Origin: Flavobacteriaceae bacterium
GTDB lineage: Bacteria; Bacteroidota; Bacteroidia; Flavobacteriales; Flavobacteriaceae
Direction: 5' to 3'
Assembly: GCA_013042715.1 (NCBI GenBank)
Contig: JABDPN010000141.1
Location: 1 to 35,797 of the forward strand
Length of the DNA stretch: 35,797 nucleotides
The notes below the pieces were generated by a model that was given only the letters and a program-made list of their open reading frames with translations, searched no databases and had not been told where the DNA came from. Position numbers and translations under genes: made by a program. Shown here one piece after another: positions 11,887 to 34,716 of the stretch; the stretch's first letter is position 1, and each line of letters opens with the position of its first letter.

Positions 11887-11942
11887 AATTAATCTGAAAT
11901 TTAAAACATCTTAATAAGAAGTGTCAATTAAAATGTTTATTA

Positions 11943-11950
11943 CAAATATA
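11943..11950 (-). promoter_or_regulatory. Candidate -7 element (TATATTTG) upstream of the sugar transferase
   Basis: Exact TAnnTTTG on - strand inside the 85 bp gap 11887-11971; no clear -33 element. Confidence 0.35.
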
Positions 11951-11971
11951 AGCTTAAGTGGGAATTGTTAA

Positions 11972-13939: not shown

Positions 13940-14009
13940 GAGTTAAGGTGTTATAAACAAATATCTTAAAAATTTGTTAATTACATGCTTAGTTTTTTTT
14001 TTTTCTACT

Positions 14010-15377
14010 TTATCTTCTTAAGAGTTTTATTTTTAAAAGTATATAAAAGAAATATGTGAAAAACAAATATCCGCACAAATTAGCAAATGAAGATCTTAAA
14101 CTTCCTCTTAGAATTAAAAATTCAAAAGGAATTAATAATAAATAGCTTATTATGAAATAGCTTTTTAAATTATTTCTAAACCAAAATTTAAAGTCTAACC
14201 AAGAATTAACTAATGCTAATAAAAGTACAAAAATAATAATTCCAATAATTCCAAAATTTATATAGCCTTCAGCAAAAAATCCAATAGCTACATTAGAAAA
14301 CCCTTGATATTCAAGATTGTTTGCAAGTAAATAACTGCTCCCTATTGGCTTACTTTCCCAAATGGCTCTGGGTATCCAAAAAAACAATACTCCTATAAGT
14401 TGATCTCCATAAGTGATAATTTTATTCATAATTATATTTACAGAGTTTTGATAAGAGTCAAAATGTAAATCTAGGAACATACCAAAATTAACTGGATTAA
14501 CTAAAACATTGCTGTTGAATCTAAAATGATGCAGATAGGGGAAGACTATCAGGAAACAAATAATAAAAAAAGAAGAGAAGTTGTATTTCTTTAAAAATGG
14601 TTTAATGTATATTAAAAAAAGTGGTAAATAAGTTACTGCAACTCGATATCTTGAAATTCCTGTTGGAAAATTACATATGACAATTAAAAATATTAAAGCT
14701 ATTTCTAAATACGCGTTTTTTAAACCATTTAGTTTATAATATAAAAATAAAATTAAAGGTGCTCCTCTAAATACATTAATAATAGCTATAACTGGTTTTG
14801 AGAAGCTTTGTGATTCATTTAAAAATACCTTTCTATGGAAAACAACTTCAAGATTAAAATCAAAATAAATAAAAAATATAAATGTACAGAGCAAAGAAAA
14901 ACTTAAAATAACTCGATTATTAATATTCTTGTCATCTAGTCTAAAAGGGTTTATGTTTAACTTTTTGTCTTTAAATCTTGTTCTATTTAAATAATGATAG
15001 GAAATATTATATAGTATTATAATTCCTAAAAATAAGCAGTTCCCATACAAAAATTCTAGTGTAGACAATTCACCATTGACACCCATGAAAAAAATAGATT
15101 TTTTATATTGTAATGCTGGTGCTAAGCCAATAAAAAAAAGAAAAAATAGATTTGTAATTCCATGAAGAGAGAAAGGCAAAGATTTATATGAAAAAATTTG
15201 AGTTATTGAAATGATAATAATTAAATAATTCAGAAATAATACTTTAAAATTAAATTGCAATCCATTGTCTAAAAACAAGACAAACCCAAGAAAAATAAAG
15301 GCAACTACTATAAAAAATTGTTTTTTCTTATACATAGAAAATCTCATTAAAAGCTTCTTTAATTCTGATAAGGTCAT
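14010..15377 (-). CDS. O-antigen/repeat-unit polymerase-like multi-TM protein (Wzy-like, copy 1)
   Basis: Multi-TM, motif GDQLIGVLFFWIPRAIWESKP; likely true start at M15 (15335), giving 8 bp overlap with upstream gene. Confidence 0.72.
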   Translation of the reverse strand: MTLSELKKLLMRFSMYKKKQFFIVVAFIFLGFVLFLDNGLQFNFKVLFLNYLIIIISITQIFSYKSLPFSLHGITNLFFLFFIGLAPALQYKKSIFFMGVNGELSTLEFLYGNCLFLGIIILYNISYHYLNRTRFKDKKLNINPFRLDDKNINNRVILSFSLLCTFIFFIYFDFNLEVVFHRKVFLNESQSFSKPVIAIINVFRGAPLILFLYYKLNGLKNAYLEIALIFLIVICNFPTGISRYRVAVTYLPLFLIYIKPFLKKYNFSSFFIICFLIVFPYLHHFRFNSNVLVNPVNFGMFLDLHFDSYQNSVNIIMNKIITYGDQLIGVLFFWIPRAIWESKPIGSSYLLANNLEYQGFSNVAIGFFAEGYINFGIIGIIIFVLLLALVNSWLDFKFWFRNNLKSYFIISYLLLIPFEFLILRGSLRSSFANLCGYLFFTYFFYILLKIKLLRR

Positions 15378-16464
15378 TATCTTTTAAATTAGAACTGCTA
15401 GGCAAACACAATCCTTGGTTAAATAACTTTTCACACATTCCATTTTTATACATTGGACTAGTTGAAAAAACAGGTTGCATATGCAACGGTTTCCATAGAG
15501 GACGTGATTCTATGTTTTTTGATGCTAATATATTAAAAACTTCTTCTTTTGAAACTTTTGTTAATTCAGAATTAATTGTAATGCAATTCAACCAATAATT
15601 TGAATAAAAATCACTGTTTGGTTCTTTGAATAATTCTACACCTTCAATACTTGCAAATAACTTATTGTAAAAACGATTATTCTTTCGTCTTAAGTTAATA
15701 TGCGCTTCTAATGCTTTTAATTGAGCTCTGCCAATACCCGCACTAATATTGCTCATTCTGTAATTATAACCAATATTTTTATGTTCATAATGAGCTTCGT
15801 TTTCTCTTGCTTGAGTGGCAAAATAGATTGATTGCTTTTTTTGTTTTATTGAATTACAAACTAAAGCACCGCCTCCAGAGGTCGTAATAATCTTATTTCC
15901 ATTAAAAGATAATATCGAGAAATCTCCAAAGGTACCACACTTTCTTCCTTTATAAGATGACCCTAAAGCTTCCGCAGCATCTTCTATTACATTAATATCA
16001 TATTTATTAGCAACAGCTAATATTTTATCGATTTTCGAAGGCATGCCATAAAGATGAACCATGATAATCGCTTTTGGTTTCATTCCCTTTTTTAATCTGT
16101 CTTTAATTGCCTCTTCTAAAGCAATTGGGCAAATGTTCCAAGTTTCTATTTCACTATCTACAAAAATTGGTTTAGCGCCTACATAAACAATTGGATTTGC
16201 AGAAGCACAAAAAGTAAAACTCTGACATATGACTTCGTCGCCAAAACCTATTCCTAATTGAATTAATGCTAAATGTATGGCTGCGGTTCCTGAAGAAAGA
16301 CAAGCAACATTTTTATTTTGATTTAAGTAACTCTCTAAGTCTTTTTCAAATTCAGTAATATTGTTGCCATAAGTAGTGACTTCGTTATTTAACAAAGCGT
16401 CTTTAATGTAGTCTAATTCATTTCCAGACATATGGGAAACTGATAAAGGAATTCTAGTTTTCAT
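15328..16464 (-). CDS. DegT/DnrJ/EryC1/StrS sugar aminotransferase (PglE-like)
   Basis: SHMSGNELDYIKDAL, ACLSSGTAAIHLAL, VIEDAAEALGSSYKGRKCGTFGDFSILSFNGNKIITTSGGG. Confidence 0.93.
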   Translation of the reverse strand: MKTRIPLSVSHMSGNELDYIKDALLNNEVTTYGNNITEFEKDLESYLNQNKNVACLSSGTAAIHLALIQLGIGFGDEVICQSFTFCASANPIVYVGAKPIFVDSEIETWNICPIALEEAIKDRLKKGMKPKAIIMVHLYGMPSKIDKILAVANKYDINVIEDAAEALGSSYKGRKCGTFGDFSILSFNGNKIITTSGGGALVCNSIKQKKQSIYFATQARENEAHYEHKNIGYNYRMSNISAGIGRAQLKALEAHINLRRKNNRFYNKLFASIEGVELFKEPNSDFYSNYWLNCITINSELTKVSKEEVFNILASKNIESRPLWKPLHMQPVFSTSPMYKNGMCEKLFNQGLCLPSSSNLKDNDLIRIKEAFNEIFYV

Positions 16465-17446
16465 GTGTCTTGTTAAGTTGTTTAATTAACTTGTATTTTA
16501 TAACTACATAAAGCATTGTGAAAGATATCACAATAAATGTCAGAGCAAGTAATTTATTTATTGTTATTTGCAAAACAATTATCAATAAAACATTTATTAC
16601 CAATTGTAGAACGAAGTAAATAGAGGCTATTTTTAAATGTCCAATTTTAAAATCGTTTACAGCTAATTGATATAAATGTCTTTTATGGGCTTGGAATACA
16701 TCTTCTTTTCTATAGGCTCTTTCAATAATTGTTAATCCTCCATCAAGTAAGTAAACTAAAAAGACTAATAAAACTAGCAGATTTTTGGTATCTAAATATA
16801 GTTTTAAAACAAAATAAATTAACGAAAATCCTATTGCAATACTGCCTATGTCTCCTGCAAAACATATTGCGTTTTTCCTGAAATTGAAAAACCCGAAAAC
16901 TACTATTGCTAATATCAAAACAATCAACAAGTTAGAGTCGGTAAATTGTAAGTAATATTCATTGAGGTATAATAAAGTAGAATAGCTAGCCAAACCATTT
17001 AAAAACGTGATTCCGTTTATTCCATCCATAAAATTATAGATGTTTAAAAACCCAATTGAAAATAGATAAACAATAAGTAAAACAGCCATTTCTAAAGCGC
17101 TTGAAAAGTTAAAAAGTTCTAGACTATAGAAAATTAAGGAGAATGCAATAAAATGAACAATTAATCTAACTTTTGAAGAAAGCATTATTAAATCATCTAC
17201 AAAACTAATAACAGAAACCAAGACAATCCCAGATAAAAAATATAAAAAATTCGCATCGGCATTAAAGAAAAATAAATACAAAAAGACTGAAAAGAAAACT
17301 ACTATACCTCCTCCACGAATGATTGGTGTAGAGTGCGCACTTCTATGATTTGGATCATCTTTTATATTTTTAATTCTTGCGACTTTTATATAAATTGTTT
17401 CTAAAACAAAAAGAGTGCAAAAAATAATTATATGATAAATCATCAT
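16454..17446 (-). CDS. WecA/WbpL/MraY-like polyprenyl-phosphate N-acetylhexosamine-1-phosphate transferase
   Basis: HSTPIIRGGGIVVF, SFVDDLIML, NIYNFMDGINGI, FAGDIGSIAIGF, HKRHLYQ. Confidence 0.9.
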   Translation of the reverse strand: MMIYHIIIFCTLFVLETIYIKVARIKNIKDDPNHRSAHSTPIIRGGGIVVFFSVFLYLFFFNADANFLYFLSGIVLVSVISFVDDLIMLSSKVRLIVHFIAFSLIFYSLELFNFSSALEMAVLLIVYLFSIGFLNIYNFMDGINGITFLNGLASYSTLLYLNEYYLQFTDSNLLIVLILAIVVFGFFNFRKNAICFAGDIGSIAIGFSLIYFVLKLYLDTKNLLVLLVFLVYLLDGGLTIIERAYRKEDVFQAHKRHLYQLAVNDFKIGHLKIASIYFVLQLVINVLLIIVLQITINKLLALTFIVISFTMLYVVIKYKLIKQLNKTHEN

Positions 17447-18674: not shown

Positions 18675-19811
18675 TTACTGTTTTGACCAAACGACTCTGT
18701 TTATATAGTCCGTATAAGAAATAATTATTCTTACGATTTTTTCTGAAACATTAGGCATAGAATAATCGTAAACTTCTCTAAAATTACGGTCTGGATCTCT
18801 TTCTTGAGCCTTTAACGCAGCCAAACCTTGCATAATGCGTTCTGGTTTTAAGCCAACCATCATTACAGAGGTCTCTTCCATGGCTTCGGGCCTTTCGTGC
18901 GCTTCTCTAATATTAAGAGCATGGAAATTAAGTATTGACGATTCTTCAGATATTGTTCCGCTATCTGATAATACTGCAAATGAATTCATTTGCAGTGCGT
19001 TATAATCGTTAAATCCTAATGGTTTTAAAAACTGAATGTTTTTATGTGTCTTTAAATTTTTAGATTCAAGCATATTTCGTGTTCGAGGATGTGTTGAAAC
19101 AATTACAGGATACTTATACTTTTCTGCAATTAAATTTAAACTTTCTATTAAACCGTTAAAGTTTTTTGAGGTGTTAATATTCTCTTCTCGATGTGAAGAA
19201 ACCAAGAAAAACTTTTGTTTTTTCAAGTCTAATTTTTGCAATACATTAGACGACTCAATTTTTGACTTAAACTTATTAAGTACCTCATACATTGGGCTTC
19301 CGGTTTTAATCACTCTATCTGGCGATAAACCCTCTCTTAATAAGTATTCTCTTGCGATAGAGCTATATGTGAGATTTATATCTGAAACATGATCTACAAT
19401 CTTTCTATTGGTTTCTTCTGGAACACGTTGGTCAAAACATCTGTTTCCTGCTTCCATATGGAATATAGGTATTTGTCTTTTTTTAGCTGGAATCGCACAT
19501 AAACATGAGTTTGTGTCTCCTAAAACTAAAAATGCATCTGGTTTTTGTTCTTCCAGAATTGGATCTATTTTAATTAAAATGTTTCCAACTGTTTGTGTTG
19601 CATTTTTTCCTGCTGCATTTAAAAAAAAGTCTGGTTTTCTAATTTCTAAATCTTCAAAAAAGATCTCGTTAAGCTCGTAATCGTAATTTTGACCTGTATG
19701 CACAATTACATGCTCTATTGCATCGTTTTTGTCTAAAGCTTGCATCACACAAGCTAACCGTATAATTTCTGGTCTGGTACCAACAACAGTAATAACTTTT
19801 AGTTTTTTCAT
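18675..19811 (-). CDS. wecB: UDP-N-acetylglucosamine 2-epimerase, non-hydrolysing (WecB/WbjD/Cap5G type)
   Basis: VVGTRPEIIRLACVM, HTGQNYDYELNEIFFEDLEI, LVLGDTNSCL, HMEAGNRCFDQRVPEETNRKIVDH, LSDSGTISEESS. Confidence 0.93.
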   Translation of the reverse strand: MKKLKVITVVGTRPEIIRLACVMQALDKNDAIEHVIVHTGQNYDYELNEIFFEDLEIRKPDFFLNAAGKNATQTVGNILIKIDPILEEQKPDAFLVLGDTNSCLCAIPAKKRQIPIFHMEAGNRCFDQRVPEETNRKIVDHVSDINLTYSSIAREYLLREGLSPDRVIKTGSPMYEVLNKFKSKIESSNVLQKLDLKKQKFFLVSSHREENINTSKNFNGLIESLNLIAEKYKYPVIVSTHPRTRNMLESKNLKTHKNIQFLKPLGFNDYNALQMNSFAVLSDSGTISEESSILNFHALNIREAHERPEAMEETSVMMVGLKPERIMQGLAALKAQERDPDRNFREVYDYSMPNVSEKIVRIIISYTDYINRVVWSKQ

Positions 19812-19858
19812 AAAGACATTTTACTGCTGCAAAAATAGAATTTTATTGCTGAAAACTA

Positions 19859-20992
19859 TTATACTTCAACAAAATATGTGTCTGGATCGTCTGGATTATA
19901 TGGCTCGTTAATCCAAAACATTGTTATAAGTTCAGTATCACCAATATTGGTAATATTGTGTGTATACCAAATAGGCATATCAACATAAGCAGGCTCATTA
20001 CCATCAAGCTCGTAATTTATTATCTTATCTGTATTTATTTTACGTAATTGAATGCAAGCCTTACCGCTAATAACAGCAAATCGCTCTACCTTTCGGGTGT
20101 GATAGTGATTGCCTCTTGTAATTCCTGGAGCTGTAGTAGAATATGAGGATTGTCCTGATGTGTTAGCTCTCATAATTTCTACAAAAGCACCTCTATAGTC
20201 TGAATGCTTTACAGATTTTCTTGGAAAATAGTCTTTAGGAATAAAGCTTGTAAATGTATTGAATAAAGCCAATTCAAAGGGATCGCTTAAATCTGATACT
20301 ATACCATTATCCATATAAGTTACCTTATACTCATTTAACAGGATTAATATTTCTGATACTTTTTTTGTTGCGTTGTGTGGTACCAAAAAAGTTTTAATTT
20401 GCTTTTTATTATCTATAGTCTCTTGGTAAAAAGCTTCAGCTAAATCGTTAATATAAATTAAATTTACTTCACCATCGCTATGAATGGTTGGCATTTCTCC
20501 TTTTACTATTTGATGACAAAACGTTGCGATAAAAGAATTGTAATATGGTTCTCCAAAAGGACCAAAAACATTAGGAATAACAAAAGATGCTACTTTTCCT
20601 CCAGATTTTTTCGCCCAATCTTCCAACAGTTTTCTGCCATCTCGTTTAGATTTGCCATATAAGTTATCTCTTTCTTCTTGGGTTGAGGATGAAAAAATAA
20701 TTTTTGGTTTTGAATTTGTTGTTTCGCATGCGTCAATTAATTTTTTAACTAATTCAACATTAGTGTTGTAAAGAACTTGTTGTTCGTCATGTCTGTTTAG
20801 TGCAGCAAGGTGAATAATAACATCGCATTTACTTACAAAGTCTTTTAGCTTTTTGTTTTTTTTAAAAAAACATATGTCATAACTTATAAGCTCTAAACCT
20901 TCTTTTGTACCAAAGTAATTATATAGATGGCTTCCCATGAAACCTTCCTGTCCTGTGATTCCTACTTTTATCATTTTTCCCAATTTACCCAT
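19859..20992 (-). CDS. NAD-dependent epimerase/reductase with C-terminal cupin (WbjC/CapF type)
   Basis: VGITGQEGFMGSHLYNYF Rossmann; C-terminal RGNHYHTRKVERFAVISGKA cupin. Likely start at M7 (20974), ATGA overlap with preceding gene. Confidence 0.9.
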   Translation of the reverse strand: MGKLGKMIKVGITGQEGFMGSHLYNYFGTKEGLELISYDICFFKKNKKLKDFVSKCDVIIHLAALNRHDEQQVLYNTNVELVKKLIDACETTNSKPKIIFSSSTQEERDNLYGKSKRDGRKLLEDWAKKSGGKVASFVIPNVFGPFGEPYYNSFIATFCHQIVKGEMPTIHSDGEVNLIYINDLAEAFYQETIDNKKQIKTFLVPHNATKKVSEILILLNEYKVTYMDNGIVSDLSDPFELALFNTFTSFIPKDYFPRKSVKHSDYRGAFVEIMRANTSGQSSYSTTAPGITRGNHYHTRKVERFAVISGKACIQLRKINTDKIINYELDGNEPAYVDMPIWYTHNITNIGDTELITMFWINEPYNPDDPDTYFVEV

Positions 20993-21408
20993 TTGTTGCT
21001 GTCAAATCTTACTTGATCATCTTCAATTTCATTTAATTCATAATCTGACATAATCATTAGTTTAGAGTTTTTTTCTATTGCTTTAAATCCGTTAGCATAT
21101 CCATTTGGAATATAAAGTACTTGCGGTTTACTCTCTTTTAAAACAAACTCGAAAACTTTACAATCTGTTGATGGATTTTCCCAATTATCAACATCTACAA
21201 GCTTTACTTTAAAGCTTCCGTTTACACAAAAAAACCACCTTTTTTCAATCTTATGACCTTGCCAAGCCCTAATGGTTTCTGTTATTGGGTGAGTTGTAAA
21301 ATACATGCGTTTTATTGGAGATAAGCTGAATTCATTTACAAATTGCAATGTTCCTCTGTCGTCTGAAAACGCTCCGCCTTCAATTAATTTTGGTGGCTCT
21401 TTACTCAT
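20971..21408 (-). CDS. WxcM/FdtA-like cupin sugar-processing protein
   Basis: 145 aa; GGAFSDDRGTLQFVNEF, AWQGHKIEKRWFFCVNGSFKVKLVD, LYIPNGYANGFKAIE as in dTDP-sugar isomerase/RmlC-like cupins. Confidence 0.8.
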   Translation of the reverse strand: MSKEPPKLIEGGAFSDDRGTLQFVNEFSLSPIKRMYFTTHPITETIRAWQGHKIEKRWFFCVNGSFKVKLVDVDNWENPSTDCKVFEFVLKESKPQVLYIPNGYANGFKAIEKNSKLMIMSDYELNEIEDDQVRFDSNKWVNWEK

Positions 21409-22423
21409 TTAGTTTAACATCGTTTCTAATAAAATCGAGTTTTAGCAGTAATTTCTTCATTCCTTCAACATCAAGTTGTTCTGTGTTGTGAGAATGATAA
21501 TCTTCTATTTCATTCATATCTATTTCTCCTTCAGAGAAAAAATTGGCATAGTTTAAATCTCTATTATCTGCTGGCACCCTATAGTAATCTCCTAAATCTT
21601 CCGCTTTAACTCGTTCTTCTCTGGTTAACAATGACTCGTAAAGCTTTTCTCCATGACGTGTTCCTATCACTTTTAATTTGCTATTTGATGTGTACAAATC
21701 AACCAAAGCTTTTGCTAGGGTTTCAACGGTTGCTGCAGGAGCCTTCTGCACAAACATATCACCTGATTTTGCGTTGTTAAAAGCAAATAACACCAAATCT
21801 ACAGCGTCTTCCAGAGTCATCATAAATCGTGTCATTTTAGGGTCTGTAAGGGTAAGATCTTTGCCGTTTTTCATTAACTCAATAAATAATGGAATAACCG
21901 AACCTCTAGATGCCATTACATTTCCATATCTTGTTCCAGAGATAACTGTATTCCCTGCATTTCTAGATTTAGCAACAAGCACTTTTTCCATCAACGCTTT
22001 AGAAATCCCCATGGCATTTATTGGATAAACAGCTTTATCTGTGCTTAAAACAACTACACTTTTTACATTGTAATTAATGGCTGCTTCCAATACATTTTCT
22101 GTTCCCAATACATTGGTTTTCACAGCTTCTATTGGGAAAAACTCGCAAGAAGGCACTTGCTTTAATGCAGCAGCATGATATATATAATCTACACCGCGTA
22201 CAGCAGTTTCAACAGAGCGGTAGTCACGAACATCTCCTATGTAAAATTTAACTTTTGGATTAGCAATACGACGTCTTAATTCGTCTTGTTTTTTTTCATC
22301 TCTGGAAAAAATACGTATTTCCTTAATATTTGAATCCACAAAACGGTTTAAAACTGCGTTTCCAAATGAACCTGTTCCTCCGGTAATTAGTAATATTTTG
22401 TCTTTAAAATTGTTCAATGTCAT
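21401..22423 (-). CDS. UDP-GlcNAc 4,6-dehydratase/5-epimerase (WbjB/CapE type)
   Basis: LLITGGTGSFGNAVLNRF, FYIGDVRDYRSVETAVRGVDYIYHAAALKQVPSCEFFP, STDKAVYPINAMGISKALMEK. Confidence 0.92.
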   Translation of the reverse strand: MTLNNFKDKILLITGGTGSFGNAVLNRFVDSNIKEIRIFSRDEKKQDELRRRIANPKVKFYIGDVRDYRSVETAVRGVDYIYHAAALKQVPSCEFFPIEAVKTNVLGTENVLEAAINYNVKSVVVLSTDKAVYPINAMGISKALMEKVLVAKSRNAGNTVISGTRYGNVMASRGSVIPLFIELMKNGKDLTLTDPKMTRFMMTLEDAVDLVLFAFNNAKSGDMFVQKAPAATVETLAKALVDLYTSNSKLKVIGTRHGEKLYESLLTREERVKAEDLGDYYRVPADNRDLNYANFFSEGEIDMNEIEDYHSHNTEQLDVEGMKKLLLKLDFIRNDVKLNE

Positions 22424-23573
22424 AATTATTTATGTTCTTATATAAATACTCTATTGTTTGTTTAGAACATTCTTTCCAAGAAAATTCTTTTGCTTTACTT
22501 TTTGCTACTTTTGCCGACTTTTCTCGTTGCTCTGAATGTTCAAGAAAATATTTTAAATTTTCGTATACACTTTTTTGATTAGTTGGGTCAAAGTAAAAGG
22601 GGTGTTTAGCACCTAAAAACTCAGGCATTGGTTGGTAATTAGAGCAAAGAATTGGCAATCCAGACAACATGGCTTCTATTAAAATATTTGGCATATTCTC
22701 GCAAGTTGAAGCAAATATAAAGCCATCTGAAGTTTTGTAAAAATTCTCTATCTCTTCATAATCAACTTTCCCGTGGAAATTTACAACTTTATCATATAAA
22801 TCATTTGATTGAAACTCTTTTAAATACTTTTTATAATATGGGGGATAACTTCCTCCAACCAAGTTAAGTTTAAAATTATATCCTTCTTTATATAATGAAA
22901 TTGCTCCTTTAATTAGAGTTATTTGATGCTTATAAACTGTTATTGGAGAGATGTACAACAAATTATAAGGTTGTTCTTTTTTGTATTTTGAAACATCCTT
23001 TTGTTTTTTTACATCTTCACTAAATTTTTGATTTACTCCGTGATGTATAATTGGACAGCTAGTTAAATCTTTATTTAAAAATTTTAGAACTGTATCTTTG
23101 GCATAATTTGAAATGAAAATAATGCCTTTTGAATTGTTAAATGCCTTTTTCTGAAAATAACGAAGTAACCTAAATTTAAACTTCATTAAGGACAGTTTTC
23201 CATACCTGTCACTTTCAATTGAATCCCAAATTAACATGTTTTGACTCATCTCAATATGAGGATTGAATTTACCTGAATATGTACCTGCTGGATTAAATAA
23301 GACAGTTCTTTTTGTTGTTTTTTTTAAATATCTATGAAAGTGTATTTTTTTCCAAAAAGAAATAAAAATAGTTCCTTTTTCTAACCAAGGATGGGTTTTC
23401 TTTTCTATCCAACTTTGATCATTAATTTTTGAAAGAGTGTTGTTATTACTAAAAACCTCAATAATATCAAATTTCACGGTGGCTTTACTAATATTATTTA
23501 GTAATTCTACTAAATGTGTAACTCCCCCTCCATCTCTAATATTAGAGGCGTCAATAATTAATTTAGTTTTCAT
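22404..23573 (-). CDS. Glycosyltransferase family 4
   Basis: DGGGVTHLVELL, NLLYISPITVYKHQITLIKG, GFIFASTCENMPNILIEAMLSGLPILCSNYQPMPE. Confidence 0.87.
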   Translation of the reverse strand: MKTKLIIDASNIRDGGGVTHLVELLNNISKATVKFDIIEVFSNNNTLSKINDQSWIEKKTHPWLEKGTIFISFWKKIHFHRYLKKTTKRTVLFNPAGTYSGKFNPHIEMSQNMLIWDSIESDRYGKLSLMKFKFRLLRYFQKKAFNNSKGIIFISNYAKDTVLKFLNKDLTSCPIIHHGVNQKFSEDVKKQKDVSKYKKEQPYNLLYISPITVYKHQITLIKGAISLYKEGYNFKLNLVGGSYPPYYKKYLKEFQSNDLYDKVVNFHGKVDYEEIENFYKTSDGFIFASTCENMPNILIEAMLSGLPILCSNYQPMPEFLGAKHPFYFDPTNQKSVYENLKYFLEHSEQREKSAKVAKSKAKEFSWKECSKQTIEYLYKNINNYDIEQF

Positions 23574-23576
23574 GTA

Positions 23577-24341
23577 TTAGTACTTTTTATCGACATTTAA
23601 AAAATACTTAAAATGAGATACTGGCCAATTTGGTTCACAGTGTCTTCGGTTGATTACAAAGCTATTAAAACTATGATAGTTTTTATAATCTGTGCCGCTA
23701 AATATATGCTCGTAATATTTCTTTGAAACCTCTAATGCTTCTTCGTTAAAATGTTGCATTTGACCAAAGGGAAATGCAAACATATTGCAGTTATTATTTG
23801 TTTTTTCTTCTATATACTTTTTACAATATCCTAATTGATACTCTAACTGTTCTTGAGATAAATTAGTACCCAAATCTAAATGGTCCATTGTATGCGAACC
23901 GATTACATGACCATCTTTTATTAATGCATTAACTTGATTCCATGTCATTGGAGATTTATTTTTTGTATTAATACGCTTTAAAAACTTTTGATTATATTTT
24001 TCATCTCCATCAATAAATCCAGGATTAATAAAAAACCCAGCGCTTATACCAAACTGTTTTAAAACAGGATTAATATGTGTATAACACTCCTCAAAGCCAT
24101 CATCGTAGGTAAAAGTAACTAATGGTTGATTGACTTCCTTTTTGTTTTCTACTAGCGATACAGCTTCCTCTATACCAATAAAAGTAACATGATTACTAAT
24201 GGCTTCTAATTGATGAAAAAATACGTCTGAATTTGATTTTTTTTCTGATATATAGTGGCTATTAATAATATGAATTCCTTTTTTTGGTTTAGAGATTAAA
24301 CCAAAAATATCTAGATAGGTATTGCGTAAAAAGGCTCTCAT
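23577..24341 (-). CDS. Polysaccharide deacetylase (NodB/CE4-like)
   Basis: TYDDGFEECYTH, HVIGSHTMDHLDL, MFAFPFGQ motifs; no convincing signal peptide. Confidence 0.87.
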   Translation of the reverse strand: MRAFLRNTYLDIFGLISKPKKGIHIINSHYISEKKSNSDVFFHQLEAISNHVTFIGIEEAVSLVENKKEVNQPLVTFTYDDGFEECYTHINPVLKQFGISAGFFINPGFIDGDEKYNQKFLKRINTKNKSPMTWNQVNALIKDGHVIGSHTMDHLDLGTNLSQEQLEYQLGYCKKYIEEKTNNNCNMFAFPFGQMQHFNEEALEVSKKYYEHIFSGTDYKNYHSFNSFVINRRHCEPNWPVSHFKYFLNVDKKY

Positions 24342-24344
24342 ATA

Positions 24345-25253
24345 CTACCAAGGTATATTTTTTAAATTAAACATCTTTTGTATTTTTAATTTTTCACCTT
24401 TATAATCCTCTGTGAGTTCCTCCAATACTTTCTCTTGAACATCTGTCTTTTCGCTTGATGTATTCACTTTTTTATAAATTGGAGACAAAGTTTTTTTCAT
24501 TATGGATCCTATAAACACCCCTACCTTACCTTTATAAAAATAGTTTAAATAAAATTGTCTTAGTCCAACATACAACTTTGAAAGCAGTCTAGATTTTACT
24601 TTTACAGTTTTATTAAAATGTTGAAATTCATAACCTTGGTAAAATTCCTTGTCAATGCCTAATTTTTCACAAAATTGATTTAAAAACAACTTTGGATTAT
24701 TTACTAAGTCTTCATAAAAAAACACATGCATAGTGTGTTCTTTAAGGTGTTCTTTGAAAACATTTAAATAATTGCTGTAAAATCCTGTTTTAAAAGCTAA
24801 CAATGATAGGTTGCTTTCTTTGTTATAGGCTTTAGATAATTTATAATAATTATCAAAATCTATTTCTTCGTTTAAAAGACCTTGTTGTTTGCCAAATCTA
24901 AACCAAGATTTAAATCTAGTTACAGGGTTTCGAAGTATGATAACCACTTTTCCATTATTTGTGTTTAAAAATAAATTTATTTTTTTTGCTGTATTTGCAT
25001 AATACATGTAATCTGGAGAGGCTTCTAACTTAAATTTTTTATTAGGATCGCATTTAAAGAAATTTTGATAGTTATCATGACTTTTATCATAATCGAATAC
25101 AGATGATAGTTCATGTTTTTTTTGAATTTCTTTATCTAAAAAGTAGTTTGTTTGTTTAATATAAGAACCGCAAACATCTGGATGGTCTGATAAATATCTA
25201 AACAAAGAGGTTGTCGCTGCTTTGTTTGTGCCTGCTATAATTATATGTTTCAA
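24345..25253 (-). CDS. Sulfotransferase (heparan-type/Sulfotransfer family)
   Basis: 5'-PSB-like GTNKAATTSLFRYLSDHPDV and 3'-PB VVIILRNPVTRFKSWFRF. Confidence 0.87.
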   Translation of the reverse strand: MKHIIIAGTNKAATTSLFRYLSDHPDVCGSYIKQTNYFLDKEIQKKHELSSVFDYDKSHDNYQNFFKCDPNKKFKLEASPDYMYYANTAKKINLFLNTNNGKVVIILRNPVTRFKSWFRFGKQQGLLNEEIDFDNYYKLSKAYNKESNLSLLAFKTGFYSNYLNVFKEHLKEHTMHVFFYEDLVNNPKLFLNQFCEKLGIDKEFYQGYEFQHFNKTVKVKSRLLSKLYVGLRQFYLNYFYKGKVGVFIGSIMKKTLSPIYKKVNTSSEKTDVQEKVLEELTEDYKGEKLKIQKMFNLKNIPW

Positions 25254-25259
25254 TTTTTT

Positions 25260-26198
25260 TTAATTTTTAAACCAAAGTTTAACCAAGTCTATATTTAGCA
25301 ATTTAGATGTTTTTTTTACATTTTCTAAATAGCTATTTGTTAACATCTCCCTTGTTTTCTCTTTAATTGGTTGGTATTTCTCTTGTTTAATATTAGCTTT
25401 TAATAAAGCTCTTTTAAATTTAGCTCTTAACGTAATGCTAAATGCATTTTTAATAAAAGAAGGAATAAAAGTGTTATTTATTAGTTTTTGTATAAGAATT
25501 GACTTTGGTGTTCCTGACTTGTTAGTATAATTAAATTCAAATTCAAAATTACTTTCAATTTTGAGAAAATCTAAAATATCTGCTATCTGTTTTTTCTTGT
25601 TTTTGATTAGTTCTTCAAAAATAACAACTTTTATATTTTTTTTGCCAAATGCATCTACTATATCCTTTATCTGATCATAATATAACCCATGCGAATAATG
25701 TGCAATAGCACCTATTTTACTCCTACCTACTTTATCAAACAGTAAGTCTGGTGTATTTAAATATGTGTCTAGGCTATTCTGATTAAAAAGACTTTTTTCA
25801 AATTCTAATGAATCTTCGAAAGACTGATTTATTGAAGACCTTCCTGTTTTAATAGCTTCCCAATAGGCCGAATAAGCTCTGTCAACTGGGTTTCTTAAAA
25901 CAATGAGAAATTTTGAACTCATTAACTCTGGGTGATAAGAAATTCTTTTAACAAACAACTTTGAAAAATAGATATAGTTTACATAACTGTGTAAAATATA
26001 CTTTTCACTATTGTAATTAGAGTATAAAGTATTATCCAGCCAAGACAATCCCTTTTGATAAAACCTGTCTGAAACAAAGAATGGGAACTCTTTTAATTCT
26101 GGAACTAAAAAAATATCTGGATGTTGACCCAGCCAATCGTATAATGAGGTTGTTCCTGCTTTCTGCACACCTAAAAGAAATAGATTTGGTGTTTTCAT
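25260..26198 (-). CDS. Sulfotransferase (heparan-type/Sulfotransfer family)
   Basis: LLGVQKAGTTSLYDWLGQHPDIF...KEFPFF and FLIVLRNPVDRAYSAYWEA. Confidence 0.9.
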   Translation of the reverse strand: MKTPNLFLLGVQKAGTTSLYDWLGQHPDIFLVPELKEFPFFVSDRFYQKGLSWLDNTLYSNYNSEKYILHSYVNYIYFSKLFVKRISYHPELMSSKFLIVLRNPVDRAYSAYWEAIKTGRSSINQSFEDSLEFEKSLFNQNSLDTYLNTPDLLFDKVGRSKIGAIAHYSHGLYYDQIKDIVDAFGKKNIKVVIFEELIKNKKKQIADILDFLKIESNFEFEFNYTNKSGTPKSILIQKLINNTFIPSFIKNAFSITLRAKFKRALLKANIKQEKYQPIKEKTREMLTNSYLENVKKTSKLLNIDLVKLWFKN

Positions 26199-26201
26199 GT
26201 T

Positions 26202-26999
26202 TTAATTGTTCAAATAATTAACCCATTCATTATTATTTTCATATCCTAAATCTATTAAGGTTTTGCCTAAATATTTTTCAAATACTTGAGCAGATTCTAT
26301 ATTGAAATTGTTTTTCCAATCTCCAGCAATACCTTTTCTTAAAAAACTATTTTTGTCTTCTTGCCCTGGTTTTCTTTTAGTTTGGTTTTTAAATGAAAAC
26401 TTCTCTGTCGTTTTTAATAATCTATCTTGATCAATTTCTGTTTCGCCTAAAAACAATAATACATTACTTAATTCTAATTCAATATTTTTTAACATATCTT
26501 CATATTTAACTAATATGACATTTTCTTGACCTAAATTATATGAATTTATAAAATCTGCTAAACTAAATCTATTGAATTTCTTTAAATAATCTGTGTGAAG
26601 ATATTCAATAAAATACGGTAAGTTTTTCTTAATGTTTTCATAATCGTTAAATGGCATTTTCTTCCTGTTGTTTTTGATTATTCTGTCTGGTGTTCTATCA
26701 TTACCCACTAACATATGAAAATAATAAGAAACCATAATGTCTCTACCATCTCTGGTTACAAAAACTATTTTATTAAATTTTTTACTGTACAAATAATGCC
26801 CATGAATAACAGCTTGTTTAAATTTTGGAATAACATTCCTTGGATAATATAGATTTAAATAGTCTGATATTATTTGTGTCATCCAAGTACCCCCAGACTT
26901 TGGATACTCTACCACTTGCAATAGATTTAGCTTTTTTGAGAAATTATGCCATAAAATGTATCTATATAATGCATTAAGTTTCTGTTCTAGGTAATTCAT
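26202..26999 (-). CDS. Sulfotransferase (cytosolic SULT/Sulfotransfer_1 type)
   Basis: VVEYPKSGGTWMTQII 5'-PSB, FVTRDGRDIMVSYYFH 3'-PB, C-terminal RKPGQEDKNSFLRKGIAGDWKN (RKGxxGDWKN). Confidence 0.92.
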   Translation of the reverse strand: MNYLEQKLNALYRYILWHNFSKKLNLLQVVEYPKSGGTWMTQIISDYLNLYYPRNVIPKFKQAVIHGHYLYSKKFNKIVFVTRDGRDIMVSYYFHMLVGNDRTPDRIIKNNRKKMPFNDYENIKKNLPYFIEYLHTDYLKKFNRFSLADFINSYNLGQENVILVKYEDMLKNIELELSNVLLFLGETEIDQDRLLKTTEKFSFKNQTKRKPGQEDKNSFLRKGIAGDWKNNFNIESAQVFEKYLGKTLIDLGYENNNEWVNYLNN

Positions 27000-28272
27000 T
27001 TTTTTTAGTAATAGAATGAGGATTTATATTTAACCTGTTTTTTAAGACTTTAAGGGATTGTAAATTCAATATCAGCAAATATATTAATGTATTTAGTCCT
27101 AAAATAGTTATAGAAAAGTATTTTGTTAAAATTATTGTTGAAGTGATAAGATAAAAAGCTGATATTAAAGTTATTTTGTTAAATGTTTTTTCGTTTCCAG
27201 TAACTTGAAGTATTACTCCAACTGGACCTGCCCAATTATTTATTAATTGTGCTATAATTAGCAATATAAATAAAGCCCAATAGTCAGAAAGCAGATTGTT
27301 ATAAAGTTCCGAATATAAATAATAGAAAACAATGACTCCAGCAAAAACTAAAGAGCTAACCAGCATAAGCATCCTAGTAATTTTTACAACATAAGTTTTA
27401 AGTTCTTTTAAATTTTTTTGATTATAAAATTTTGCTGCAATAGTCATTACTCTACCATTTGTAGCTATAAGTGGTAAAGTAACTATTTGAGAAAACCTTA
27501 ATATTGTATCATAAATCCCTAATGCTTCTAATGAATATTCACTTTTAATTATGGTGTATAAAATTGTAGTGGATATAATACTAATCGAATTTGTTAAAAC
27601 AAAATGAATGGCTCGCTTATAAACTAATATAATTGAATTATAAATCTCCTTAATTAAATTAAACAGGTTTATTGATAAAATTTCTTGGACAATTTTTTTA
27701 ATAAAAAATATTATAATAAGCAAAAGTGCAATGATGTTGACAAAAATTATACTTTGGATTAAATCGTTTGTTTCTAAAACAAAATGATTCACCAATAATG
27801 CAATTAAAACAGTAAGTTGTAGAAGTACAAACTCAAAAAAACCGTACATAATCATGTTGTTTTTACCTCTAAAAAAGTGGCTTAAAAACCTCCAGAGTGC
27901 TAAAAATATGGATCCAAATAAAAGGTAGTAATCTATTTCAAATAAAAAACTAAATACTAAGAATAGAATAACGAAAATACATATATTAACACTTAAAATG
28001 GATAAGTGAAAAATTAAATTATTCCTTTTAGTTTGATCTAGTTGGTTTATTTCTTTAACTATTAAATAATCTAAACCAAAGACAATAAATATTTTTATGG
28101 CTCTTGATAATGCAATGAAGTTTGCATATTCCCCATTTACCTCAAAACTATAATAATGAATAATTAGCATTAAAACTAAATAGTTAAAAAAAATGCCAAT
28201 CAATTTAAGCACAAATAAACTACCTGAGTTTTTTATTCCAAAACTTATATACTGCTTTAGTTTATTTATCAT
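26974..28272 (-). CDS. Polysaccharide flippase (Wzx-like)
   Basis: 432 aa, many TMs, N-terminal SFGIKNSGSLFVLKLIGIFFNYLVLMLI...GEYANFIAL. Confidence 0.82.
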   Translation of the reverse strand: MINKLKQYISFGIKNSGSLFVLKLIGIFFNYLVLMLIIHYYSFEVNGEYANFIALSRAIKIFIVFGLDYLIVKEINQLDQTKRNNLIFHLSILSVNICIFVILFLVFSFLFEIDYYLLFGSIFLALWRFLSHFFRGKNNMIMYGFFEFVLLQLTVLIALLVNHFVLETNDLIQSIIFVNIIALLLIIIFFIKKIVQEILSINLFNLIKEIYNSIILVYKRAIHFVLTNSISIISTTILYTIIKSEYSLEALGIYDTILRFSQIVTLPLIATNGRVMTIAAKFYNQKNLKELKTYVVKITRMLMLVSSLVFAGVIVFYYLYSELYNNLLSDYWALFILLIIAQLINNWAGPVGVILQVTGNEKTFNKITLISAFYLITSTIILTKYFSITILGLNTLIYLLILNLQSLKVLKNRLNINPHSITKKNELPRTET

Positions 28273-29653
28273 TTTTATACACTAAACTTATTCTGTTTAT
28301 ATAAAACAAAAAATTTAAAAGTATCACTATTACGATAAATTTTGAGAAGAATTGATTTAATTGTCGTGGTAAAAAGAAAAAAGAGGCTAAACAAAAAGAT
28401 AGTATTACAACCTGTTTATTTGATTTAAAAACACTATTTTTCCTAAAATATTCATCAACAAAATTTGACAACCAGCCAATAAAAAGTGAAATTAAAATTA
28501 CACCTACTATTGCAAAGTCAGAATATGGAACTCCAAGATAGCTTGCAGGAGCACTAAACTTGTCTCCAAAACCCTTTTGACCACCTAAATAATCTCTAAT
28601 AAACCAATAACCAAATTGTGGTGGTTTTTCAGGCCAAAACTTTCTAGGAACCCAGAAAAAAATTACAGCTAAGGTTGATTGACCATATCTAAGATTTTCT
28701 TCTTCGTAATAATCCACAACATAATTTAAATACACTGTTGTCTTGTCAGTAGAATAATCTTTTGTTACTTTTTCGTATTTTTCAATTTTCTCTCCCAATA
28801 AATAATTAACAAATCCATGCCTTCTAATATCAACTATTTTATTTGAAATAAAATACCCTGCTACTAACAAAACGATGAAAGAGTATCTAAATTTAATTTT
28901 ATGAGAGTTGATTAGAGAATATGTTCCTACCAAACCAAGAAAAGAAAATAAGATATGGTGTCTCGTGCCAATTACTAAATATATAAACCAGATAATCCCA
29001 GAGGGAAATAATGAAAGCAAAAAAGATAATAAAGGACTAAAACGTCTATTAAACCATATAAAAATTAATGACGGTAATATATAACCGGCAAATCCTGAAA
29101 TAAAATATGCAATACTAGAAAAAACAGACCTTTTAGCTCCTTCTAAACCTCCAAACTCTCTGCCTCTAATAATTTCAAATCTACTTGTAAAAAAAGAATT
29201 AAAAGCATTTGGGAATTCATAAAACAAGAAGAAAAAATATAAAATAATAATTAGTAAAAAAGTTAATGGTTTTAACTTGTCTTTTACCTCAATATAAAAG
29301 CCCTCAAAAACATCTTTGAATTTTCTTTTTTCAAAAACCCTGTATGTTGTGATAATTAATAATTGACTAATTAAAAACAGATAGGACGTATAGTTGTAGT
29401 TACTTAAACTTGTTTTTAAAATAATTTCATCTCTTGATAAAATACCATCTAAACATATTATAGTTATAAATCCTAAATTCCAAAAAGTATAAGTAGATAT
29501 AAAATTGTTTCTATTTATTTGTGTTACTATTTCAATAAATGAAACTAATACTAATCCAATATATATATTATCAAATAATATATTTAATAAAACACATATA
29601 AACAGATAAATAGTAACTCGAGCTCCTATTGTTGTTTTTAAATTAAAATTCAT
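28262..29653 (-). CDS. Repeat-unit polymerase-like multi-TM protein (Wzy-like, copy 2)
   Basis: 463 aa, YGQSTLAVIFFWVPRKFWPEKPPQFGYW motif shared with the 14010..15377 protein. Confidence 0.75.
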   Translation of the reverse strand: MNFNLKTTIGARVTIYLFICVLLNILFDNIYIGLVLVSFIEIVTQINRNNFISTYTFWNLGFITIICLDGILSRDEIILKTSLSNYNYTSYLFLISQLLIITTYRVFEKRKFKDVFEGFYIEVKDKLKPLTFLLIIILYFFFLFYEFPNAFNSFFTSRFEIIRGREFGGLEGAKRSVFSSIAYFISGFAGYILPSLIFIWFNRRFSPLLSFLLSLFPSGIIWFIYLVIGTRHHILFSFLGLVGTYSLINSHKIKFRYSFIVLLVAGYFISNKIVDIRRHGFVNYLLGEKIEKYEKVTKDYSTDKTTVYLNYVVDYYEEENLRYGQSTLAVIFFWVPRKFWPEKPPQFGYWFIRDYLGGQKGFGDKFSAPASYLGVPYSDFAIVGVILISLFIGWLSNFVDEYFRKNSVFKSNKQVVILSFCLASFFFLPRQLNQFFSKFIVIVILLNFLFYINRISLVYKNDK

Positions 29654-30922: not shown

Positions 30923-31453
30923 CTATTCAAGGTTAAAGAGTTTTCTTATGAAACCTTGTCGGAAATTTAAAACAGGTATATGCTTATTATTAATTGTTTT
31001 TGTCTCAATAGTTTTTGTTTCTTTATTAAATAAAACATAATTATTCATTGTGAAATATCTATCCAATTCTAATCCATCAACTATAACTTTTTGATCGTCA
31101 TAGCTTAATGTGATATTATTAATTACCATTTTTTTAGGTTTTTTACCTAATTTTAATTGAATTTTAGATGAGATATAATCACCAAACATTTTAAAATTTG
31201 TGGTCTTTAGTTCGTCAGAAGAATTGATTTTTTGGGTTATTGTATAATTTCCTGTTTGAGTATTATCTCCTAATTCAATATTAGAAAATGTGCATTGAAA
31301 AAAATCTGAAATATCTGATTTATACTCAACAGAAACAATTAGTTTAATTGGTTCTTTGGATACTTCTAAAGGTAAAGATTCTTCACTTTTGTCTTTGTTT
31401 TCGTTACAATTAAAGAAAAGTGATAAACAAATTAGCATTAATATCTTTTTCAT
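30923..31453 (-). CDS. Putative lipoprotein of unknown function
   Basis: MKKILMLICLSLFFNC signal with lipobox-like LFFNC followed by NENKDKSEE. Confidence 0.6.
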   Translation of the reverse strand: MKKILMLICLSLFFNCNENKDKSEESLPLEVSKEPIKLIVSVEYKSDISDFFQCTFSNIELGDNTQTGNYTITQKINSSDELKTTNFKMFGDYISSKIQLKLGKKPKKMVINNITLSYDDQKVIVDGLELDRYFTMNNYVLFNKETKTIETKTINNKHIPVLNFRQGFIRKLFNLE

Positions 31454-31471: not shown

Positions 31472-32725
31472 CTATTTAATCATTCCTGCAGCAACTGTTT
31501 CGTTAGTTGCGTCATCAATAAGAATGATGCTTCCAGTTGTTTTATTGTCTCTATAATTATCTACCATTAAAGGTTTAGTTGTTCTTATTTTCACCTTAGC
31601 TATATCGTTCATTTTCAATTCTTTGTCTTCTTTATCTCTATCTAAGGTGTTAATATTTATTTTGTATATAACTTCTTTAATCATTGCTCTTTGGTCATTA
31701 GAAGTGTGCTTAATTGTGTATTTAGCTCTAGGTTTAGCTGGGTTATTGTGTAGCCAACACAGCATTACATCTATATCTTGTGTTGCTTCTGGTTTATTGT
31801 TAGTTCTAACAATCATATCGCCACGACCAACATCGATATCATCTTCTAAAGTTACTGAAACTGACATTGGAGCAAAAGCTTCTTCTAATGATTCTTCAAA
31901 AGTGTCAATTGACTTTACCTTTGAAGTAAACCCAGAAGGTAAAACTGTTATGTTATCGCCTTTTCTAATTATTCCACTAGAGAGCCTTCCCGCATAACCT
32001 CTATAATCGCGATGAGTGTCACTTTGTGGTCTTAACACCGTCTGAACAGGAAAACGCATATCAATTTTATTAATATCACTACTAATATGTATTGTTTCTA
32101 GTGTATGTAAAAGTGGAGCCCCTTGATACCAAGTCATATTATCTGACCTATTTACTACATTATCTCCTTTTAAGGCGCTAATTGGAATAAACCTAACATC
32201 TTTAACGATAAGCTTAGATGAGAATTCTTCAAATTGATTTATTACAGTATTATAAGCCTCTTCGTTATAATCTACTAAATCCATCTTATTTATACACACC
32301 AAAATATGAGGAATATGTAATAAAGATGCTATAAATGAATGTCTTTTAGTTTGCTCTATTACACCATGTCTTGCGTCTACTAAAATAATTGCCGCATTAG
32401 CTGTAGAAGCACCTGTTACCATGTTTCTAGTATATTGAACATGACCTGGTGTGTCTGCTATTATAAACTTACGTTTTGGAGTTGTAAAATATCTGTATGC
32501 TACATCTATTGTAATACCTTGCTCACGCTCGTCTTTTAAACCGTCTGTAAACAAAGCAAGATCTACACCTTGATGACCTTTTCTTAAGCTTGTTTTTTCT
32601 ACTGCTTCTAATTGGTCTTCAAAAATAGATTTAGAGTCATATAATAAGCGTCCAATCAAAGTGCTTTTTCCGTCGTCTACACTTCCTGCTGTAGTAAAAC
32701 GTAATAATTGATTATTGTCTATCAT
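31472..32725 (-). CDS. cysN: Sulfate adenylyltransferase subunit 1 (GTPase)
   Basis: TAGSVDDGKSTLIGRLLYDSK, DTPGHVQYTRNMVTGAS, NKMDLV; no C-terminal APS kinase fusion. Confidence 0.95.
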   Translation of the reverse strand: MIDNNQLLRFTTAGSVDDGKSTLIGRLLYDSKSIFEDQLEAVEKTSLRKGHQGVDLALFTDGLKDEREQGITIDVAYRYFTTPKRKFIIADTPGHVQYTRNMVTGASTANAAIILVDARHGVIEQTKRHSFIASLLHIPHILVCINKMDLVDYNEEAYNTVINQFEEFSSKLIVKDVRFIPISALKGDNVVNRSDNMTWYQGAPLLHTLETIHISSDINKIDMRFPVQTVLRPQSDTHRDYRGYAGRLSSGIIRKGDNITVLPSGFTSKVKSIDTFEESLEEAFAPMSVSVTLEDDIDVGRGDMIVRTNNKPEATQDIDVMLCWLHNNPAKPRAKYTIKHTSNDQRAMIKEVIYKININTLDRDKEDKELKMNDIAKVKIRTTKPLMVDNYRDNKTTGSIILIDDATNETVAAGMIK

Positions 32726-32755
32726 TCTTTATTTTTTTGCTTTGATTATATTTTA

Positions 32756-33661
32756 TTAAAAATATCCTTGACGTTTTCTGTCTTCCATAGAAGTCTCAGA
32801 GCGTTTGTCGTCACTTCTGTTTCCGCGTTCTGTTTTCTTCATTGCTGATACTTCTGCAGCAATTCTATCTACAGTGTCTGCAGTAGATTCAATACCTCCA
32901 GTGATTGTTATATCTCCTAAAGTTCTAAAACGCACTTTTTTAACAACTATTTCTTCGCGATCTTCTAATTTTAAATATTCTGAATTAGGAATCCATGAAT
33001 CTTGTCTCCAAACCACTTCTCTGTCATGTGCAAAATAAAGTGATGGGATTTCAATATTTTCTCTACTTATATAATTCCAGACATCCATTTCTGTCCAGTT
33101 ACTAATTGGAAATGCTCTAAAATGTTCTCCATCGAAATGCTTACCGTTAAAGATATTCCAAAGCTCAGGGCGTTGGTTTTTTGGATCCCATTGTCCAAAA
33201 TCATCTCTATGTGAAAAGAAACGTTCTTTTGCTCTTGCCTTTTCCTCGTCACGTCTTCCACCTCCAATTGCACAATCTACTTTGTTTTCTTCAATTGCAT
33301 CTAGTAATGTGGTTATTTGTAATTCGTTTCTTGTTGCGTTTTTTCCTTTTTCTTCTGCTACTCGACCTTCATTTATAGATTTTTGAACTGAGCCTACAAT
33401 TAGTTGAACGCCTAATTCTTTTACTAGATCATCTCTAAACTTAATAGTTTCTGGAAAATTATGTCCTGTATCTACATGCATTAATGCAAATGGTATCTTA
33501 GATGGGTAAAATGCTTTTCGGGCTAAATGTGTCACTACTATTGAGTCTTTTCCTCCTGAAAATAAGATTACAGGATTTTGAAATTGAGCCCAAACCTCAC
33601 GTAAAACAAATATGGCTTCACTTTCTAATTCGTCTAAATAATTTAAGTAGTACTTACTCAT
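32756..33661 (-). CDS. cysD: Sulfate adenylyltransferase subunit 2
   Basis: LFSGGKDSIVVTHLA, HVDTGHNFPET, GGRRDEEKARAKER, C-terminal MEDRKRQGYF. Confidence 0.96.
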   Translation of the reverse strand: MSKYYLNYLDELESEAIFVLREVWAQFQNPVILFSGGKDSIVVTHLARKAFYPSKIPFALMHVDTGHNFPETIKFRDDLVKELGVQLIVGSVQKSINEGRVAEEKGKNATRNELQITTLLDAIEENKVDCAIGGGRRDEEKARAKERFFSHRDDFGQWDPKNQRPELWNIFNGKHFDGEHFRAFPISNWTEMDVWNYISRENIEIPSLYFAHDREVVWRQDSWIPNSEYLKLEDREEIVVKKVRFRTLGDITITGGIESTADTVDRIAAEVSAMKKTERGNRSDDKRSETSMEDRKRQGYF

Positions 33662-34256
33662 TTTTATATTTTAATATTGGTTCTATAAATTTTAATATTT
33701 TTTCTACTGCTTCTTCAACAGTTTCTTGCTCTGTTTTTATTTCAATTTCTGGATGTTCTGGGGCTTCATAAGGTGCGGTAATTCCAGTCATATTCTTAAT
33801 CTCACCAGCTCTTGCTTTTTTGTAAAGCCCTTTTACATCTCTTCGTTCGCACTCTTCAACACTTGTGTTTATATAAATCTCGACAAAGTTAACATCTTTA
33901 ACAATACTTTTTATGTTATCTCTATCTTTTTTATAAGGTGAAACAAATGCTGCTAATACCACTAAGCCAGCATCTATCATTAGATTTGATACCTCAGCAA
34001 TTCTTCTAATATTTTCAGTTCTATCTTCTGGAGAAAAAGTTAGGTCTTTATTTATACCTTTTCTAATATTATCACCATCTAAAGTGTATGTTTTAATACC
34101 TTTTTTCTGAAGTCTTTGCTCAACCACATTTGCAATTGTTGATTTACCAGATCCCGATAAACCTGTAAACCACATTAAAAAGGAATTTTGGTTATTTGCT
34201 TTTCTCCTGTCGTTTATCGTTACTTGATAATGATGTGTTACTATGTTATCTTTCAT
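33654..34256 (-). CDS. cysC: Adenylylsulfate kinase
   Basis: WFTGLSGSGKSTIANVVEQ P-loop, LDGDNIRKGINKDLTFSPEDRTENIRR, GLYKKARAGEIKNMTGI. Confidence 0.95.
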   Translation of the reverse strand: MKDNIVTHHYQVTINDRRKANNQNSFLMWFTGLSGSGKSTIANVVEQRLQKKGIKTYTLDGDNIRKGINKDLTFSPEDRTENIRRIAEVSNLMIDAGLVVLAAFVSPYKKDRDNIKSIVKDVNFVEIYINTSVEECERRDVKGLYKKARAGEIKNMTGITAPYEAPEHPEIEIKTEQETVEEAVEKILKFIEPILKYKNE

Positions 34257-34713
34257 TGTTTTTTAACTTTCCGTATACATATTTTCGAATTCTACCTAAT
34301 GGAAGCGTGACCCATAAACGTTCATGAATGTAATATAGAATAAACTTACTTACAGATTCTGTGAGTGCAATATAAAGCGCAATTTCATCAAATGCATTAA
34401 GTATCGCTCCAGAAATTATAAATGTCATTGCAGAAGCTATTACACGCCATGAAATTGTTTTATAAAGAGTTTCTTTTTTTGAAACAACACCATCTTTTAA
34501 AGCAAATTGCCAAACTCTTTCATGTATGTAATAAACCGCTAGCTTTAAAAGAAATTCAACTAACCCTATTTTAATTGCATGTTCTATACTACAATTTCCA
34601 GTAAGACAAGTGATTAAAAGTACAACTAATACTGTATCTGCTGTAGCTAAAAAACGCCATGTAATCCCTTTTATTAAGCTTCTTAAATGTGATTCTTTTT
34701 TGAAGTTTGTCAT
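34246..34713 (-). CDS. DUF2061-type membrane protein with two tandem repeats
   Basis: KGITWRFLATADT...YYIHERVWQ repeated as KTISWRVIASAMT...YYIHERLWV. Confidence 0.85.
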   Translation of the reverse strand: MTNFKKESHLRSLIKGITWRFLATADTVLVVLLITCLTGNCSIEHAIKIGLVEFLLKLAVYYIHERVWQFALKDGVVSKKETLYKTISWRVIASAMTFIISGAILNAFDEIALYIALTESVSKFILYYIHERLWVTLPLGRIRKYVYGKLKNNER

Positions 34714-34716
34714 TTA

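Follow-up and report, generated by a model that had tools for sequence, protein, structure and literature searches.

In the rhizobial Nod factor, a cytoplasmic CE4 deacetylase (NodB) and a sulfotransferase (NodH) work within one lipo-oligosaccharide pathway, in which NodA acylates the amine exposed by NodB and NodH O-sulfates C6. Other CE4 enzymes, such as PplD, IcaB and PgaB, have completed glycans outside the cytoplasm as their substrates, and removal of O-acetyl groups is also possible for enzymes of this family. In the Caulobacter holdfast, lipid-linked glycosyl units are the presumed substrate of the CE4 enzyme HfsH, and the GNAT HfsK has been suggested to acylate the amines that HfsH exposes (PMC5362036), the hfsK gene being unlinked to hfsH (PMC8449245). 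Animal NDST enzymes, which produce the N-sulfated sugar of heparan sulfate, carry a deacetylase and a PAPS sulfotransferase in a single Golgi polypeptide; the deacetylase clusters nearer to CE18 than to CE4, and obtaining active animal NDST from bacterial hosts has been described as a bottleneck for heparin biosynthesis (PMC13353177). The catalytic base of both 3-OST and NST is a Glu (PMC11625862, PMC8341778), and the catalytic residues of NST are numbered Glu641 and His716 (PMC3733922). Our searches of an open-licence paper library brought up no account of N-sulfation by a bacterial pair of CE4 and sulfotransferase.

Here we study two adjacent genes, one for a CE4 deacetylase and one for a PAPS sulfotransferase (ST1), in a 35,797-nucleotide stretch of DNA from a Flavobacteriaceae bacterium (contig JABDPN010000141.1), hereafter the window. 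The initial annotation had read the pair as a possible split NDST, that would deacetylate and then N-sulfate an amino sugar of a lipid-linked repeat unit in the cytoplasm.

Results

The source genome is a 2.4 Mb draft in 335 contigs (82% complete, 5.5% contamination), and the window is one of these contigs; genes were called as longest ORFs. CE4 (23577..24341) and ST1 (24345..25253) both lie on the minus strand, separated by 3 bp. Directly upstream of ST1, on the same strand, are two further sulfotransferases: ST2 (25260..26198; PF00685, 5e-16), that retains the Glu (KEFPFF) and matches NDST1 with 44 bits and 3-OST5 with 40, and the SULT-like ST3 (26202..26999; PF00685, 2e-21), whose PDB matches are cytosolic SULTs. 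CE4 is adjoined by a GT4 glycosyltransferase (22404..23573, minus strand; Glycos_transf_1, 4e-21) and, next to it, by genes for FnlA-like, WxcM/FdtA-like cupin, FnlB-like and 2-epimerase (annotated WecB) proteins (18675..22423, minus strand; Pfam and NCBIfam matches), which we take to be a probable UDP-L-FucNAc pathway. Beyond the sulfotransferases are encoded, on the minus strand, a Wzx-like flippase and a Wzy-like polymerase (26974..29653), the latter with a weak match to PF14296 and the former assigned by position and hydrophobicity only, with no Pfam hit; also a ligase-like membrane protein; and, again on the minus strand, a PAPS operon (31472..35520) comprising CysN, CysD and CysC, named from sequence, a DUF2061 membrane protein and a CysQ-like phosphatase (Pfam DUF2061 and Inositol_P, and the gene order of relatives). 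The PAPS supply on which the initial annotation counted is thus encoded in full within the window, and the ORF coordinates agree with the gene spacing it gave.

The small DUF2061 membrane protein (34246..34713) sits between CysC and CysQ, and this order recurs in the PAPS operons of several relatives (G039, G068-type, G074, G118, G256, G293, G386). Between CysN and the ligase-like gene, a 176-aa lipoprotein-like protein (30923..31453) has no confident Pfam match, and homologs occupy the equivalent place in L023, L061 and L064.

The CE4 protein (254 aa) has the NodB fold and the Asp-Asp and HxxxH motifs of a polysaccharide deacetylase, as seen by Pfam (Polysacc_deac_1, E=4e-22), in an alignment of 30 homologs and in an AF2 model built with them (pLDDT 94.7). 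Both motifs named in the initial annotation are intact: TYDDG (residues 78-82; 24096..24110, minus strand), in which D80, D81 and G82 are invariant in the 30 homologs, and (S)HTMDH, whose HTMDH part (residues 150-154; 23880..23894, minus strand) has H150 and H154 likewise invariant. The NCBIfam models for PdaB, PgaB, IcaB, HfsH and NodB match it far below their cut-offs (HfsH 4.5e-7, NodB 6e-7, both weak). The nearest folds to the model are PplD (TM 0.70), IcaB and PgaB, with TM 0.67-0.70 on the query, and the NDST deacetylase was not among its fold or sequence matches. At the N-terminus, MRAFLRNTYLDIFGLISK, the best 19-residue Kyte-Doolittle mean within the first 70 residues is 0.86, with similar values in orthologs; by this hydropathy measure there is no apparent signal peptide or transmembrane segment, as the initial annotation had suggested for the signal peptide. 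The N-terminus is modelled as a helix that could possibly touch the membrane surface. The enzyme probably strips acetyl from a surface sugar.

Single-sequence scans of genome and viral contigs yielded no relatives, and an alignment query of genome contigs with CE4 gave 29 loci; the named CE4 relatives are almost all Bacteroidota. In 400 genomes of the family we found six CE4 relatives with 43-47% identity, each with a GNAT adjacent or two genes off. The CE4 clade has 31 members (the window and 30 relatives; support 100/99). We examined their neighbourhoods, trimmed at 10-20 kb, with sulfotransferase, CE4 and GNAT profiles built for this analysis, which some members may escape. A GNAT lies beside CE4 or two genes away in 16 of the 31; a glycosyltransferase, methyltransferase or other neighbour is found in 12, and two are cut by the contig end. 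No GNAT was found within the window. A sulfotransferase is a direct neighbour of CE4 in none of the 30 relatives and in the window alone, which rules out CE4 and sulfotransferase as a conserved pair across the clade. The 12 relatives with neither GNAT nor sulfotransferase as neighbour indicate that CE4 functions without an ST partner.

The gene order of one relative, L052 (GNAT-CE4-GT4-FnlA-cupin-FnlB), is that of the window, with a GNAT replacing ST1. A GT4 that is 39-41% identical to that of the window adjoins CE4 in L046, L051 and L052. In G039, G074 and G118, PAPS operons and sulfotransferases are located beyond the GT4, and the GNAT has been retained. Some relatives (G297 and G374, for example) carry sugar genes other than the UDP-L-FucNAc set. 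Also encoded among the successive sulfotransferases of G039, G074 and G118 is a 252-aa protein (L036:11777-12535) with no Pfam match; judging by its beginning, that resembles a PAPS-binding sulfotransferase, it may represent an undescribed sulfotransferase family.

ST1 (302 aa, TTG start) belongs, among PAPS sulfotransferases, to the 3-OST/NST fold group (PF00685, E=4e-10; PF13469, E=9e-9; AF2 pLDDT 91.8). Its PDB sequence matches are, in order, the bacterial protein 3rnl, NDST1 and 3-OST. The structure search against NDST proposed with the initial annotation did match NDST1 (Foldseek: 3rnl, 3-OST and NDST1, TM 0.54-0.66 on the query), but the fold of ST1 fits NDST no better than 3-OST. As a single sequence ST1 scores 28 bits with NDST1 and 23 with 3-OST, and a profile of the ST1 trio gives 50 versus 42 bits, a preference of 8.5 bits for NDST1, whereas a broader profile of 35 sequences favours 3-OST (114 versus 97 for NDST1). 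Ranked by NST preference among 77 bacterial homologs, ST1 comes 12th, and its ortholog in G068 (see below) is neutral. With the profile scores so mixed, the sequence slightly on the NST side, the ortholog neutral and the fold equally close to both, NST membership of ST1 is unproven and cannot be claimed. The label heparan-type is fair as far as the 3-OST/NST fold group goes, with no NST-specific feature to take it further.

The column of the catalytic-base Glu is occupied in ST1 by Gln (codon 34, CAA; 25152..25154, minus strand). Of the 77 homologs, 67 have Glu in this column, 5 have Asp and 2 have Gln, these last two being ST1 itself and the G068 ortholog, which rules out a sequencing error as the cause. 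Glu641 of NST aligns with Gln34, and His716 with Phe120. The 5'-PSB lysine K11 is kept (K in 66 and R in 11 of the 77), as is R108, and the 3'-PB serine S116 is present in 77/77. A Gln in place of the Glu is awkward for N- and O-sulfation by ST1 alike.

G068 carries a syntenic cluster with ST1 (51% identity), ST3 (63%), Wzx, Wzy, CysN/D/C and a CE4 in the matching position. This CE4, of only 28-30% identity, groups with the CE4 of G135; forcing it into one clade with the CE4 of the window was rejected (AU p=0.0004), so the two are not orthologs. Since the CE4 of G068 comes from another lineage, two different deacetylases adjoin ST1 orthologs, and this single recurrence of the pairing with a non-orthologous CE4 hints at a functional link. 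G293 encodes an ST1-like protein (33-36% identity) that has the Glu, and no CE4 is seen in its neighbourhood. Among 57 other PAPS-kinase neighbourhoods (14-20 kb each), 30 contain sulfotransferases and one, G279, a CE4, which directly precedes a sulfotransferase; G114 is arranged alike. The adjacency has thus apparently arisen in about three independent lineages (the window, G068, and G279 with G114), too few for a strong statistic, and its chance occurrence is 6-24% per cluster given several sulfotransferases. In G114 and G279 (L065:6826-10604, L123:5229-9125) the CE4 is of a different, 350-aa type and is flanked on both sides by sulfotransferases that have kept the Glu base, which makes this a second kind of CE4-sulfotransferase arrangement.

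Discussion

From the gene identities, the motifs, the lack of a signal peptide, the PAPS genes and the neighbourhoods described above, we infer a substrate, an order of steps and a site of sulfation as follows. CE4, predicted to work in the cytoplasm and to unmask an amine on the way to a sulfated repeat unit, would take the acetyl off one amino sugar while the unit is lipid-linked and has yet to be flipped; FucNAc is one candidate substrate, given the UDP-L-FucNAc genes in the window. CE4 would be part of a Bacteroidota CE4-GT4 module, in which the GNAT that is often adjacent would presumably re-cap the amine. ST1 would hold the slot of this GNAT and be one of three PAPS sulfotransferases sulfating the repeat unit, acting on an oxygen while the amine stays free, giving a zwitterionic unit, or is capped by another enzyme. 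An O-sulfating ST1, next to an amine that is free or capped in another way, is somewhat more likely than an N-sulfating one, because ST1 has no NST-specific features and the relatives of CE4 occur in clusters without sulfotransferases. Such a pathway is supported by what else the cluster of CE4 encodes, namely the PAPS enzymes, a Wzy-like protein and three sulfotransferases, and marine O-polysaccharides with free amino groups are known (PMC3210612). Against an O-sulfation independent of CE4, the repeated adjacency in G068 fits a tighter coupling. Cytoplasmic unmasking with ST1 in the GNAT slot is for us the best overall explanation, about evenly poised between holding and failing.

The split NDST first proposed, in which ST1 would use PAPS in the cytoplasm to N-sulfate the amine exposed by CE4 and so give the repeat unit an N-sulfated amino sugar, keeps part of its ground. 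The 3 bp spacing, the CE4 without signal peptide, the PAPS supply, the location of ST1 in the GNAT slot of relatives (clearest in L052), the G068 ortholog beside a CE4 of another lineage and the preference of the ST1-clade profile for NDST1 are all consistent with it; also, a report on Pontiella describes N-sulfated EPS, detected by an indirect nitrous acid assay (PMC7356697). It has to be contrasted with the replacement of the base Glu by Gln34 and of NST His716 by Phe120, with an NST preference that is nothing special among the homologs, with a CE4 whose fold is not NDST-like and with the lack of an adjacent sulfotransferase in all 30 relatives. On balance we find it possible but rather unlikely. 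A specific form of it, an independently arisen two-gene counterpart of NDST in which a CE4 of the acyltransferase clade and a Glu-to-Gln sulfotransferase act together in the cytoplasm to sulfate the amine of a lipid-linked amino sugar, we deem unlikely.

Alternatively, the two genes could be unrelated neighbours, CE4 acting on another acetylated sugar or on an O-acetyl group and the adjacency being an accident of cluster reshuffling. The rarity of CE4 in PAPS clusters, the ST1-like protein of G293 with no CE4 in sight and the frequency of chance adjacency in clusters with several sulfotransferases would fit such an accident, but the adjacency is repeated in three apparently independent lineages, and we consider this reading rather improbable. 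That ST1 is a non-catalytic, PAPS-binding or scaffold protein, with ST2 and ST3 performing the sulfation, would agree with the loss of the general base to Gln, both in ST1 and in its ortholog, and with the KExxFF retained in ST2. However, K11, R108 and S116 are conserved, and two orthologs with 51% identity share the whole fold and the Gln, which points to constraint, not decay; we consider this reading very improbable.

Among the described systems, the preferred cytoplasmic unmasking finds its counterpart in the holdfast: by analogy, the CE4 step would work like HfsH, and the GNAT of the relatives would be in the role proposed for HfsK (PMC5362036), whereas the window has a sulfotransferase and not a GNAT. 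The Nod factor pathway resembles the window in joining a CE4 and a sulfotransferase, but its amine is acylated, and the CE4 of the window matches the NodB model weakly. PplD, IcaB and PgaB provide the closest solved folds to the CE4 model, although the window CE4 has no export signal. As in animal NDST, a deacetylase is found with a PAPS sulfotransferase, of 3-OST/NST fold in ST1, but in two separate ORFs, and ST1 lacks equivalents of Glu641 and His716. By the features tested, the CE4-ST1 pair falls outside the NDST family, and it would be NDST-like in function only if ST1 is an N-sulfotransferase. If it is, the pair would represent a natural bacterial route to N-sulfated glycans through two small, separate proteins. 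Should ST1 prove to be a pure O-sulfotransferase, the exchange of acyltransferase and sulfotransferase next to one and the same deacetylase would still provide a testable model, in which Bacteroidota would vary one amino sugar as acylated, sulfated or free amine.

The cluster as a whole has two candidates for the initiating transferase, WcaJ-like (10480) and WecA-like (16454), within 10480..17446, and two Wzy-like proteins (14010 and 28262, the second spanning 28262..29653), so that it may build two glycans. At its edge lies a PaaK-like adenylate-forming enzyme (8000..9310); genes like it come after the CE4-GT4 pair in both G297 and G374, which suggests that the PaaK-like enzyme could activate an acyl group for an amine.
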